Assembly: GCA_024711025.1 (NCBI GenBank)
Contig: JANJTP010000048.1
Coordinates: 1 to 44,806, forward strand
From: Solirubrobacteraceae bacterium
GTDB taxonomy: Bacteria > Actinomycetota > Thermoleophilia > Solirubrobacterales > Solirubrobacteraceae
DNA: 44,806 nucleotides
Reading direction: 5' to 3'
Numbering within the stretch: position 1 is the first letter of the stretch; each line of letters opens with the position of its first letter. This document shows positions 30,538 to 41,608 of this stretch, in pieces. The notes below the pieces were generated by a model that saw nothing but the letters and a program-made list of their open reading frames with translations, was not told the origin of the DNA and ran no database searches. The translations under genes and the position numbers were made by a program.

Positions 30538-30610
30538 GCGCCCGTAGCTCAGTGGATAGAGCGCTTGCCTCCGGAGCAAGAGGCCGCAGGTTCGAATCCT
30601 GCCGGGCGCG
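30538..30610 (+). tRNA. tRNA-Arg (CCG anticodon)
   Basis: A complete cloverleaf of 73 nt can be drawn. The acceptor stem is gcgcccg/cgggcgc, the D-arm is gctc...gagc, the anticodon stem is cttgc/gcaag with loop ctccgga (anticodon CCG at 30571-30573), and the T-arm is gcagg-ttcgaat-cctgc. G is the discriminator. CCA is not encoded. It decodes the CGG arginine codon. Confidence 0.97.
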
Positions 30611-37431: not shown

Positions 37432-39792
37432 TCACATGGCGGGCAGCCGCTGGCTCAGCGAGAGCGCCGGCGCGAGCAGGTCGCCATGCTCGTCCATCCG
37501 GCGCAGGACGTCGGGTGCGAGGAAGCGCAGCGCGTCCGTGTCGCGAGCGGCGGCGCACGCCTCGATCTCCTCCCAGGTGACCGGCGCCGAGACCGTCGGC
37601 CGCTCTCGTGCCCGCAGCGAGTAGGGCGCGACCATCGTTCGCGCCCGGTCGTTCTGGTACCAGTCGACGAGCACGCGCCCGGAGCGCAGTCCCTTGGCCT
37701 GGCGCGCGACGACGAGTCCCGGTTCCTCCCCCGCGAGCAGCTCCGCGACCGCTCGGCTGAAGCGCTTGGCCTGCGCGAACGTCGCATCCGGGCGGTTCAG
37801 CGGAACCAGCAGATGGAGGCCCTTGCCGCCCGACGTCTTCGCCAGGGCCCGCAGGCCGACGCCGTCGAGCATGCCGCGCAGCAGCAGCGCCACCCGGCAG
37901 CACTCGACGATGCCTGCCGGCGGGCCGGGATCGAGGTCGAAGGCGAGCCAGGTGGGCCGATCCGGCGCGTCGGCGAGCGCCGCCGACGCGTGGAGCTCGA
38001 GCGCCGCGAGCTGCGCCAGCCAGACGAGCGTCGGCGCATCGTCGGCGATCACGTGGCGGATCCGCTCGCGACCGTAGGCGACGGTCTCGGTGCGCACCCA
38101 GGCGGGTGCGTGCGACGGGGCTCGCTTCTCGAAGAACGACTCGCCGTCCACGCCGTCCGGGAATCGCTTGAGCGTCAGGGCGCGTCCTCGCAGATGCGCG
38201 GCCAGCAGCGGCGCGATGCGGGCGACGTAGTCGAGCGCGTCGCGCTTGCTGAAGCCGTCGGGGTAGAGGGGCTTGTCGAGGTTGGTGACCGCAATCCGCC
38301 GCCCGTCGACGAGCGCCGTCGCGCAGCGCCCTTTCCCGCGCATCTCGCGCTCGTCCTCCAGGACGAGCGGGCGCGGAGCATCGTCGCGCAGGCCGACCCA
38401 GACCGGGTGGCGCAGCAATCCACCGCGTGAGCGCTCACCGAACGCGACCTCGGCCAGCAGCTCGGGCTCCACCCAATGGGCCTCGCGCGGCGGTCGGGCG
38501 CCGCCGGCCGCAAACGGCGAGCTGCGCCGAGCGAGCGGTGCGAGCCGTGCGGCCAGGTCGTCGAGCGCGTCCTGCGAGAGCCCCGACCCCACCCGGCCGG
38601 CGTAGCGCAGGCGCCCGTCGGCACCGGCGTCGCCGAGCAGGAGCGAGCCGATCCGTCCGCCCCTGCCGCCCCGGCCCGCGAGCCAGCCGCCGATCAGCAG
38701 CTCGGCGGTCGGCCGTCGCTTAACCTTGACCCATCTCGCGCTGCGCCGCCCAGGCTCGTATGTGCCGTCGAGCCGCTTGGCGACGACCCCCTCGAGGCCG
38801 AGTCGCTCGGTGGCGGCGAGCAGATCCCGCCCGTCGCCCAGGTGGGCCTTCGGAACCTGCCAGCGCTCGCCGTCGAGAGCGAGCGCGTCGAGCTGCCTGC
38901 GGCGCTCGGCGTAGGGCAGCTCGAGGAGCGGTCGCCCGTCGAGCCAGAGCAGGTCGAAGACGACGTACGTCACCGGCGTCTCGCGCGCCAGCCGGCGAAC
39001 GTGCTCGGGGCGCTCGGCGTGCATTCGCCGCTGCAGCGCCTGGAAGCTCGGACGCCCGGCACCGTCCGCCACGACGACCTCGCCGTCGAGGATCGCGCGG
39101 TGCTCGCGCAGCGCACGGCCGAGCCCGGCCAGCTCGGGGTAGCGGGCGCTGACGTCCGAGCCGCTGCGCGAGCGCAGGGTCAGGCGCCCCGGCTCCGACC
39201 GGCACTGCATGCGCGCGCCGTCCCACTTCACCTCGAACGCCCAGCCATCCCCCTCGGGGAGCGACCCGGGCCGTGCGAGCATCGGCTCGATCCACTGCGG
39301 CAGCGGCTCGGCGCCCGGATCGACGGGGGCTCCCATCCGGTGGATCATCCACGAGCGCTCGTCGCGTGGACTGCGCCCGGTCGCGAACAGCGCCCAGCGA
39401 CCCCGCAGGCGCTCGCCGTGCAGCTCCACCTCGACCTTGCGCGCCTCCCACAGCAGCGGCGCATACGTCCCGCGGTCGAAGATGTGGATCTCCCCCGCCC
39501 CGTACTGCCCTGCCGGGATCGTCCCCTGGAAGCCCAGGTAGTCGAGCGGATGGTCCTCGGTGCGAATCGCGAGGCGGTTCTCGCCCGGGTCGTCGGGCAG
39601 GAAGCGCGGCAGCGCCCACGACGCGAGCGCGCCGTCGCGCTCCAGTCGCAGGTCCCAGTGCAGCCTGCGCGCCCGATGCTCATGGACGACGAAGCGCGAC
39701 TCGGCGGCCGGCGCCGGCGGCTCGACCCCGGCCGGCTCGGGCGTCGCGCCGAAGTCGCGCCGCCGGCGATACTCGCGCAGGCGGTCGGGCAT
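37432..39792 (-). CDS. ligD: ATP-dependent DNA ligase D (PE-LIG-POL)
   Basis: Non-homologous end-joining enzyme acting with Ku, which is not in this window. 786 residues in the order 3'-phosphoesterase (about 30-145; FVVHEHRARRLHWDLRLE, YGAGEIHIFDRG), ATP-dependent ligase (about 165-480; nucleophile Lys189 in FEVKWDGARM, LDGEVV, EGVVAKRL) and primase-polymerase (about 490-786; DKPLYPDGFSKRD, WLAFDLDPGP, KTSGGKGLHLLVPL). This order is the one known from Pseudomonas, not the POL-first order of mycobacteria. A TACGGT box 6 nt before the ATG and no Shine-Dalgarno suggest leaderless translation. Confidence 0.93.
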   Translation of the reverse strand: MPDRLREYRRRRDFGATPEPAGVEPPAPAAESRFVVHEHRARRLHWDLRLERDGALASWALPRFLPDDPGENRLAIRTEDHPLDYLGFQGTIPAGQYGAGEIHIFDRGTYAPLLWEARKVEVELHGERLRGRWALFATGRSPRDERSWMIHRMGAPVDPGAEPLPQWIEPMLARPGSLPEGDGWAFEVKWDGARMQCRSEPGRLTLRSRSGSDVSARYPELAGLGRALREHRAILDGEVVVADGAGRPSFQALQRRMHAERPEHVRRLARETPVTYVVFDLLWLDGRPLLELPYAERRRQLDALALDGERWQVPKAHLGDGRDLLAATERLGLEGVVAKRLDGTYEPGRRSARWVKVKRRPTAELLIGGWLAGRGGRGGRIGSLLLGDAGADGRLRYAGRVGSGLSQDALDDLAARLAPLARRSSPFAAGGARPPREAHWVEPELLAEVAFGERSRGGLLRHPVWVGLRDDAPRPLVLEDEREMRGKGRCATALVDGRRIAVTNLDKPLYPDGFSKRDALDYVARIAPLLAAHLRGRALTLKRFPDGVDGESFFEKRAPSHAPAWVRTETVAYGRERIRHVIADDAPTLVWLAQLAALELHASAALADAPDRPTWLAFDLDPGPPAGIVECCRVALLLRGMLDGVGLRALAKTSGGKGLHLLVPLNRPDATFAQAKRFSRAVAELLAGEEPGLVVARQAKGLRSGRVLVDWYQNDRARTMVAPYSLRARERPTVSAPVTWEEIEACAAARDTDALRFLAPDVLRRMDEHGDLLAPALSLSQRLPAM

Positions 39793-39855: not shown

Positions 39856-39943
39856 GCGGCCGCCCGCTCAGCCCCCGGCGGCCGCCCGCTCAGCCCCCGG
39901 CGACCACTCGCTCAGCCCCCGGCGACCGCCCGCTCAGCCCCCG
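39856..39943. repeat. 22-bp tandem repeat, four units overlapping the sulfur-carrier gene 3' end
   Basis: Units at 39856-39877, 39878-39899, 39900-39921 and 39922-39943 (gcggccgcccgctcagccc followed by ccg, with two units altered at a few bases). The last unit contains the authentic stop codon of the MoaD-like gene; the other three repeat it. As 22 is not a multiple of 3, minus-strand stops occur in all three frames. The architecture parallels the 38-bp repeat at the peroxiredoxin gene. Confidence 0.9.
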
Positions 39944-40209
39944 GCGACAGCCGGCAGCACCTGGATCTGGGCGCCGTCGCTCAGCGGCGTCGCCAGATCT
40001 TCGCCGAAGCGGATGTCCTCCCCGTCGACGTAGACGTTCACGAAGCGCCGCACGGCTCCGGACTCGTCGCAGAGCCGCTCGCGCAGCTCGGCGTGGGCGG
40101 CGAACAGCGACTCGAGCGCATCGCGCACGGTCGCTCCGTCGACCGCCACGACCTGTGCGCCGGCGGCCGCGTCGCGCAGCTGGGTCGGCAGCTTCACCGT
40201 GATCGCCAT
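39934..40209 (-). CDS. MoaD/ThiS-family sulfur-carrier protein
   Basis: 91 residues with a ubiquitin-like beta-grasp pattern: an N-terminal strand (AITVKLPTQLRDAAAG), the helix ATVRDALESLFAAHAELRERL, a VNVYVDGEDIRF strand and the C-terminal tail IQVLPAVAGG ending in Gly-Gly. The exposed Gly-Gly is what carriers use to form a C-terminal thiocarboxylate, so no processing would be needed. Its ATG overlaps the thrC stop (TGATG), and both lie behind a SAM-I riboswitch. No molybdopterin or thiamine genes are nearby, so MoaD or ThiS proper are less likely than a carrier for amino-acid sulfur (CysO/HcyS-like, inference). Confidence 0.85.
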   Translation of the reverse strand: MAITVKLPTQLRDAAAGAQVVAVDGATVRDALESLFAAHAELRERLCDESGAVRRFVNVYVDGEDIRFGEDLATPLSDGAQIQVLPAVAGG

Positions 40210-41477
40210 CAGGCCACCGCCCCGCTCGCGACCGGCTCGACTCGCTGGCAGAACTCGTCGAACGAAGCATCGATCTCGAACGTCTCGAACGTGTCCCGCA
40301 CCGCGTCGAGCGTCTTGAGGCCCTCGCCCGTGATGACCAGCACTACGCGTTCGTCGGCACCGATCGCGCCGCTCTGGGCGAGCTTGGCGAGCGTCGCCGC
40401 CGTTACCCCGCCGGCGGTCTCCGTGAAGATGCCGGTCGTCTCGGCGAGCAGGCGGATCCCGGCGCGGATCTCGTCGTCGTCGACGGCCTCGATCGAGCCG
40501 CCGCTTCGGCGAGCCAGGTCCAGCGCGTAGGGTCCATCCGCCGGTGTGCCGATCGCCAGCGACTTCGCGATCGTGTCCGGGCGCACCGGGCGACAGACGT
40601 CGTGCCCTTCGGCGAACGCTCGCGCGACGGGTGCGCAGCCCGCCGCCTGCGCTCCGTGGAAGGCAGGCTCGTCGCCTTCGATCAGGCCGAGCTCGAGCCA
40701 CTCGGCGAAGCCCTTCGCGATCTTCGTGTACAGCGAGCCGCTGGCCACCGGCGCGACGACGCGATCCGGCGTGCGCCAGCCGAGCTGCTCGGCGACCTCG
40801 TAGGCGATCGTCTTGCTGCCCTCGGCGTAGTAGGGCCTCAGGTTGACGTTCACGAACGCCCAATCCCGCTCGCCCGACAGCTCGGTGCAGAGCCGGTTGA
40901 CGTCGTCGTAGGTCCCGCGGATCTTCACGAGGTTCGTCCCGTAGACGCCCGTCGCGAGCACCTTCTGCTCCTCGAGGTCGGCCGGGATGAAGACGTAGCT
41001 CTCCAGCCCGAGCGCCGCCGCGTGGGCCGCGACGGAGTTGGCGAGATTCCCCGTGGAGGCGCAGGCGAGCACTTCGAAGCCGAGCTCGCGCGCACGGGCC
41101 GCCGCGACGCTGACCACGCGATCCTTGAACGAGTGGGTCGGGTTGGCGGCGTCGTTCTTGACCCAGAGCTCCCCCAGCCCGAGCCGCTCGGCGAGCCGGT
41201 CGGCCCGGATCAGCGGCGTGCAGCCCGCCGGCAGCGCGGCACGCGAAGACGCTCGCGCCGATGGGCCCGGCGGCCCCCCGGCGAGCGGCAGGAAGTCCGC
41301 ATAGCGCCAGATGTTCTGCGGCCCGCCCTGGATCCGCCGACGCAGCGCACCGACATCCGTCAGGCCGCTGTGGTCGTACGCGACCTCCAGCGGCCCGAAG
41401 CAACGCGAGCAGACGTAGCTCGCGTCCAACTCGTAGGGCGTCGCGCATTCGCGACACCGAAGCCCCGTGGCCCCCAT
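40209..41477 (-). CDS. thrC: Threonine synthase homologue
   Basis: PLP enzyme, normally converting O-phosphohomoserine to threonine. 422 residues from ATG 41477. An N-terminal zinc ribbon (Cys8-x2-Cys11, Cys23-x2-Cys26) is followed by the PLP domain with Lys118 in NPTHSFKDRV, ASTGNLANSVAAHAA and the glycine-rich AGGVTAATLAKLA. The family match is good, but function could differ: it is behind a SAM-I riboswitch and overlaps a sulfur-carrier gene, which fits a PLP enzyme making homocysteine from the same substrate as well as threonine. The Shine-Dalgarno GGAGG (41509-41505 region) lies within the terminator stem, 7 nt upstream. Confidence 0.9.
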   Translation of the reverse strand: MGATGLRCRECATPYELDASYVCSRCFGPLEVAYDHSGLTDVGALRRRIQGGPQNIWRYADFLPLAGGPPGPSARASSRAALPAGCTPLIRADRLAERLGLGELWVKNDAANPTHSFKDRVVSVAAARARELGFEVLACASTGNLANSVAAHAAALGLESYVFIPADLEEQKVLATGVYGTNLVKIRGTYDDVNRLCTELSGERDWAFVNVNLRPYYAEGSKTIAYEVAEQLGWRTPDRVVAPVASGSLYTKIAKGFAEWLELGLIEGDEPAFHGAQAAGCAPVARAFAEGHDVCRPVRPDTIAKSLAIGTPADGPYALDLARRSGGSIEAVDDDEIRAGIRLLAETTGIFTETAGGVTAATLAKLAQSGAIGADERVVLVITGEGLKTLDAVRDTFETFEIDASFDEFCQRVEPVASGAVA

Positions 41478-41480
41478 GAG

Positions 41481-41511
41481 AAAACCTCCGCCGTGACACG
41501 TGGCGGAGGTT
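41481..41511 (-). terminator. Expression-platform terminator of the SAM riboswitch
   Basis: Minus strand: 10-bp stem AACCTCCGCC / GGCGGAGGTT around a 9-nt loop, ending in a T4 run (41484-41481), 3 nt before the thrC ATG. The 3' arm contains the GGAGG ribosome site, so the hairpin can block translation as well as terminate. The loop's GTCAC (41497-41493) can pair with GTGAC at the P1 3' side (41527-41523), a short possible antiterminator. Confidence 0.75.
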
Positions 41512-41524
41512 CTGGATTCTCCGT

Positions 41525-41608
41525 CACATCTTTCAGGAATTGGCACCGTGCCCTTGCGGGAGGTTGCCGGGGTTTCGTCGGGCCAGTCCCTCCACCCCTC
41601 TGGATGTG
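41525..41608 (-). ncRNA. SAM-I (S-box) riboswitch aptamer
   Basis: The minus strand reads as a near-consensus S-box. P1 is CACATC (41608-41603) with GATGTG (41530-41525). P2 begins CAGAGGGGTGGAGGGACTGG, with the conserved GGCCCGACGAAACCC and CGGCAACC. P3 is CCCGCAAGGG. The conserved GGTGCCAATTCCTG precedes GAAAGATGTG. All core SAM-contacting segments are there. A terminator and the thrC start follow. SAM-I normally turns expression off when S-adenosylmethionine is high. Confidence 0.95.

Follow-up and report, generated by a model that had tools for sequence, protein, structure and literature searches.

A predicted metM-metO operon for homocysteine synthesis behind a P4-less SAM-I riboswitch variant in a Solirubrobacteraceae bacterium

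What does a gene make when its product resembles threonine synthase and its leader is a riboswitch for S-adenosylmethionine (SAM)? This question is raised by a locus on the minus strand of contig JANJTP010000048.1, of which the stretch from position 1 to 44,806 is here called the window. The original prediction had placed a near-complete S-box aptamer with a terminator directly upstream of a thrC homologue at 40209-41608, and had proposed that the enzyme uses O-phosphohomoserine to make homocysteine rather than threonine. That span takes in the aptamer and the gene, but it stops short of a sulfur-carrier gene (40209-39934) that turns out to be central to the argument. We consider it highly probable that the locus is an operon of metM and metO that a SAM-I switch turns off when SAM is abundant, in which MetM would make homocysteine from O-phosphohomoserine with sulfur borne by MetO. 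The features are collected in Table 1.

Table 1. Features of the metM-metO locus, in window coordinates.
Feature	Position	Strand	Basis
SAM-I riboswitch aptamer, variant without helix P4	41523..41610	-	RF00162, P4 deleted in alignment
P1 helix, 5' strand, CACAUC	41603..41608	-	Rfam structure line; pairs kept in 98% of cells (20 leaders)
P1 helix, 3' strand, GAUGUG, mostly doubling as first part of the antiterminator / anti-sequestor	41525..41530	-	
Antiterminator / anti-sequestor strand, AUGUG-A-CGGAG, competing with P1 and the hairpin	41519..41529	-	Predicted duplex
Expression-platform hairpin, CCUCCGCC / GGCGGAGG, a terminator-like stem that would sequester the Shine-Dalgarno sequence	41485..41509	-	Predicted fold, conserved pairing
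Shine-Dalgarno GGAGG in 3' arm of hairpin	41485..41489	-	Sequence; same layout in most family members
metM, encoding a PLP enzyme that resembles threonine synthase (422 aa, motif NPTHSFKDRVV); predicted homocysteine synthase using O-phosphohomoserine	40209..41477	-	
metO, ThiS/MoaD/CysO-like sulfur carrier, 91 aa, C-terminus PAVAGG	39934..40209	-	ThiS/MoaD/SAMP1-type match

A SAM-I aptamer without helix P4

The assignment to the S-box class held up in a covariance-model search. With cmscan, RF00162 matches positions 41610-41523 of the minus strand and scores 80 bits (gathering score, 44.4; E = 2.3e-17), directly 5' of the threonine-synthase-like gene and 46 nt away from it. The alignment runs end to end over model positions 1-108, and P1, P2 with its internal loop (the kink-turn side), P3 and the conserved core are all present, the core columns being invariant. 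The aptamer is therefore near-complete in that it is matched from one end of the model to the other, but helix P4 is missing: the Rfam alignment has a 17-position deletion, and a 12-nt linker stands where P4 would be. The window element is a P4-less SAM-I variant and not a canonical SAM-I aptamer, which has this helix; what it shares with the canonical S-box is the core, P1 to P3 and the logic of a competing antiterminator. The aptamer is predicted to bind SAM. The SAM-IV riboswitch also lacks P4 (PMC6890682), but a P5, a second pseudoknot and another type of turn set it apart, and the best match of the window element within the clan is SAM-I, only the best clan member being reported.

The P4-less form is shared by the window and most parsed members of the host family, with a linker of 11-13 nt that is mostly UCCUGNNAGAUG. 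P4 is present in L049, L058 and L065, in other families of the host order and in Streptomyces. It is also absent from L118, L137, L138 and L140, which with L042, L047, L054 and L066 represent several lineages of the phylum that carry P4-less SAM-I aptamers with a linker of near-constant length. We found no description of a P4-less SAM-I aptamer in the literature that we searched, a search of limited extent.

The RF00162 search of the whole 3.1-Mb genome returned no second SAM-I element. No RNA family matched at the metY-metX, thrC, CBS or cysM loci of the host genome either, so that no further SAM riboswitch was found near these genes. A scan by consensus gave no sigma-70 promoter 5' of the leader, such a scan being uninformative in a GC-rich actinobacterium. 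Elsewhere in the window, a tRNA gene lies at 30538-30610 (RF00005, 74.6 bits).

The expression platform and its Shine-Dalgarno sequence

Downstream of the aptamer, the arms of the platform hairpin (5' arm, 41509-41502; 3' arm, 41492-41485) are followed by UUUUCUC and then by the ATG. The GGAGG within the 3' arm lies 7 nt 5' of this ATG and is the sole visible Shine-Dalgarno sequence of metM. Across 20 leaders, 98.1% of cells in the hairpin alone are paired and three of its pairs have compensatory changes on both sides; for P1 and the hairpin together, standard pairs occupy 98.2% of cells, compared to at most 51% paired in slid controls. The antiterminator strand is predicted to form a duplex with 41508-41498 (window, -14.9 kcal/mol, z about -3.1 versus shuffles; 19 further leaders, -12 to -21 kcal/mol). 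The base 3' of GAUGUG is A opposite U in several relatives and G opposite C in others, a compensatory pattern; in the window, the same position is an A-C mismatch that interrupts the antiterminator helix.

This arrangement of P1, antiterminator and terminator is classic S-box logic, and SAM is expected to switch metM off. When SAM is abundant, the bound aptamer would keep P1 closed and thereby withhold the P1 3' strand from the 5' arm of the hairpin, which would then form and bury the metM Shine-Dalgarno sequence; transcription may end there too. Under SAM scarcity, the P1 3' strand together with CGGAG would pair with the 5' arm, freeing GGAGG and turning metM-metO on. The competing helix and the conserved hairpin can be read directly from the leaders; the direction of regulation is inferred. 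A calculation in which the Shine-Dalgarno sequence was forced open was dominated by P1, and since RNAfold has no energy term for SAM, it is uninformative on the balance of the switch.

The terminator of the original prediction is thus a real hairpin whose stem is conserved with compensatory changes, but its T-run (TTTTCTC) is weak, it goes unreported in a strict terminator scan, and its 3' arm contains the Shine-Dalgarno sequence. Because this terminator-like hairpin holds the only visible Shine-Dalgarno sequence of metM, the switch is probably translational, and perhaps transcriptional too; the hairpin is at least as much a sequestor as a terminator. In other families of the host order, 22-44 nt mostly separate the hairpin from the start and a U-run mostly comes after it, with room for a separate Shine-Dalgarno sequence, and the close kin L047 and L059 have runs of six to eight U. 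These relatives would suit a classic transcription terminator switch with no involvement of translation. For the window, such a switch is unlikely, given the buried Shine-Dalgarno sequence, the UUUUCUC tail and the silence of the strict scan. In addition, the hairpin abuts the start codon in the host family and is kept beside the ATG in L050, L052, L056 and L063, where the U-run has been lost.

The likely course in the host family is that a terminator turned into a Shine-Dalgarno sequestor, the preferred reading being a switch that acts at least in part on translation. A broader proposition, which we regard as evenly balanced, is that the metM leader in the host family and several other lineages is a naturally minimised P4-less SAM-I aptamer (with its nearly fixed 11-13-nt linker), joined to a hairpin that began as an ordinary terminator some way from the gene and came to act as both terminator and Shine-Dalgarno sequestor. 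Such a three-helix switch would exert graded or double-level control at the O-phosphohomoserine branch point. The Streptomyces platform differs from that of the window: there, an AGGAG-rich stretch lies at the P1 3' strand, in place of a long hairpin holding the Shine-Dalgarno sequence.

MetM, its sulfur carrier and the predicted reaction

The metM start (ATG at 41477) agrees with the start conserved in relatives. The product is annotated as threonine synthase because it matches TIGR00260 (thrC) at 269 bits, above the cut-off of 167; with the stricter PRK08197, it scores 274 bits, below the cut-off of 303. It is 56-58% identical to Streptomyces proteins and about 41% identical to canonical ThrC. 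A tree, in which S. albulus MetM itself is absent, splits 45 metM-type proteins (the window and Streptomyces included) from 11 canonical ThrC proteins of the host order with a support of 99. The window enzyme groups with the Streptomyces MetM-type proteins; it neither clusters with the ThrC of hom-thrC-thrB clusters nor keeps the residues conserved there. At least 38 columns are diagnostic for metM-type versus ThrC, among them L145 (Thr in ThrC) and Y217 (Arg in ThrC), which separate 76/76 metM-type from 11/11 ThrC sequences. The PLP-lysine motif is NPTHSFKDRVV in most metM products versus NPTGSFKDRGM in ThrC, and STGNL replaces STGNT at position 145; Arg214 lies near Tyr217. We take the replaced Thr and Arg to be the substrate- and phosphate-contacting residues of T. 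thermophilus ThrC, as a lead only. Canonical ThrC and the window enzyme thus share their fold type and, probably, O-phosphohomoserine as substrate, but they belong to separate clades. Two ThrC-like paralogues outside the tree set, L230 (G029:C41:5770-6969) and L231 (G025:C360), share 43% and 34% identity with the window protein and lack the metM motif.

The second gene, metO, overlaps metM by a single base, the start of one and the stop of the other sharing TGATG. The nearest solved structures to its product are M. tuberculosis CysO (3dwg) and the ThiS/MoaD carrier 4n6e. To our knowledge, threonine synthesis does not involve a sulfur carrier; since the adjoining metO would be useless for making threonine, it argues for a homocysteine role of metM. 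A 22-nt repeat (CGCTCAGCCCCCGGCGACCGCC), present in about four copies, can be seen by eye at and past the metO end (39857-39945), and a gene for a multidomain LigD (phosphoesterase, ligase and primase-polymerase; 37432-39792) adjoins the operon on the same strand.

A methionine-synthesis system of this kind, MetM/MetO, is said to have been first described in Streptomyces in 2024, when Hasebe et al. reportedly found that MetM forms homocysteine from O-phosphohomoserine and the MetO thiocarboxylate. In those parts of PMC12172450 that concern Streptomyces (citing Hasebe et al. 2024), S. albulus MetM is a homocysteine synthase and metO a sulfur-carrier gene, the two genes are neighbours, and a SAM riboswitch lies upstream of S. 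albulus metM. The window has the same threonine-synthase-like enzyme in one clade, the neighbouring carrier gene and the upstream SAM riboswitch; it differs in that the genome keeps metY-metX too and in its aptamer without P4. A Microcystis homologue that is 51.6% identical to S. albulus MetM and lies beside a metO-like gene is, in vitro, a weak threonine synthase and threonine deaminase (PMC12172450). Because this homologue makes threonine, identity alone does not fix the reaction of MetM homologues.

The rest of the genome narrows the choice. Ten PALP-family genes are present, and metM is not the only thrC-like gene: a canonical ThrC (TIGR00260, 292 bits) is encoded on contig C33, flanked by homoserine dehydrogenase (hom) and homoserine kinase (thrB). 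The original prediction had also proposed looking for metX and metY, and a metY-metX pair is found on contig C68. A CBS gene, followed by a Cys/Met PLP-family gene, lies on C48. Two CysM/CysK-like loci have sulfur carriers and rhodanese-MoeB proteins, one of them also with a JAMM/desampylase-like protease. Because rhodanese-MoeB proteins are encoded, carrier-charging enzymes are available. The two rhodanese-MoeB copies are near a CysM-like gene on contigs C11 and C67 (G000; L024 and L025), one with a Prok-JAB (desampylase-like) gene; we read these loci as a double carrier-dependent cysteine system.

Carrier-fed PLP enzymes are known from other systems. CysM of M. tuberculosis takes sulfur from the CysO carrier, and Wolinella HcyS/MetY makes homocysteine with a PLP enzyme fed by a carrier thiocarboxylate. 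Both resemble the predicted MetM/MetO pair in principle; the former differs in using O-phosphoserine and a CysM, the latter in its enzyme family (MetY) and in O-acetylhomoserine as substrate. Given the CysO-CysM precedent and the resemblance of MetO to CysO, the metM product might be a carrier-dependent sulfhydrylase for another substrate, for example turning O-phosphoserine into cysteine, or, as Microcystis shows that homologues can be bifunctional (PMC12172450), an enzyme making both homocysteine and threonine. We consider this improbable, however, as the genome has two separate CysM/CysK-like genes beside rhodanese-MoeB genes and carriers, SAM control points to methionine, and the closest kin of MetM is threonine synthase, not cysteine synthase. 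That metM encodes a second threonine synthase under SAM control, perhaps sharing out O-phosphohomoserine when methionine is scarce, would agree with the TIGR00260 score and the Microcystis activities but is scarcely credible beside a canonical ThrC next to hom and thrB, ThrC-invariant columns that differ throughout the metM clade, and a carrier gene and SAM repression that would be useless for threonine synthesis.

The homocysteine synthase reading, by contrast, is supported by the overlapping carrier, the clade shared with Streptomyces, the separate ThrC and the recurrence of riboswitch, enzyme and carrier described below. In this pathway, MetM, a paralogue of threonine synthase, would draw O-phosphohomoserine from the threonine branch and swap its phosphate for sulfur from the C-terminal thiocarboxylate of MetO, yielding homocysteine and thence methionine and SAM. 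The enzyme that charges MetO is presumably one of the two rhodanese-MoeB proteins, whose genes lie at other loci. The aptamer, the gene order and the clade are direct observations; the enzyme reaction and the sulfur route are our interpretation of them. With metM-metO and metY-metX, the host genome has both homocysteine routes, and metM need not be the main one.

Distribution across the order and phylum

Among 60 relatives and the host's own genome, there are 54 full or partial close homologues of metM (68-100% identity). A SAM-I element lies 43-158 nt upstream on the same strand in 51 of these; of the remaining three, two are truncated at contig ends. Across a sample of 296 genomes from the phylum, close homologues (>280 bits) occur in 110, at least 66 of which have SAM-I within 500 nt upstream; a direct scan of 20 sampled loci found it in 17. 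One group in this sample is Streptomyces (80 named loci, 88-96% identity). There, the aptamer core motif precedes metM at every one of the 80 loci, each of which has the complete trio of riboswitch, metM and carrier, the carrier GG being at or near the end.

The carrier gene lies 3' of metM in 28/33 loci of the host order, 33/38 of the wider class and phylum and 80/80 of Streptomyces; in a few relatives, including L042 of the same genus, it is not beside metM. Carriers with one to six residues past the GG (S, C, R, A or STDDGV) occur at L044, L047, L054, L066, L127 and L128 and at 11/80 Streptomyces loci; the extra residues would have to be removed, for example by a JAMM protease, before the thiocarboxylate could be made. 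At L045 (638-2242, minus strand), also of the same genus, metM and metO form one open frame of 535 codons including the stop, which reflects either a genuine gene fusion or a single-base error in the assembly.

Matches of the metM type occur in each of the 39 good genomes of the host order (at least 90% complete, at most 5% contaminated). MetX is present in 12 and MetY in 12 of them, 27 are without metX/metY, and MetA was not found in any of the 39; the host genus is among those carrying metY-metX. In most of the host order, metM-metO is the only recognised homocysteine route in a comparison covering MetX, MetY and MetA. The metM-metO pathway itself is already known, so the inference of a methionine-branch enzyme was right but not new. 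What is new here, in a system known in kind, is how far the pathway reaches, that it occurs together with metY-metX, that the aptamer lacks P4 and that the hairpin contains the Shine-Dalgarno sequence.

These data make the MetM/MetO route with its SAM riboswitch a phylum-wide arrangement and not a Streptomyces peculiarity. Because no other route via MetX, MetY or MetA turned up in most of the order, many threonine synthase annotations in these bacteria should be renamed, and the riboswitch lets such reassignments be checked from genomes alone. The P4-less aptamer provides a natural test case for the minimum that a SAM-I element needs, and the Shine-Dalgarno sequence within the hairpin provides one for the passage from a terminator to a translational switch.
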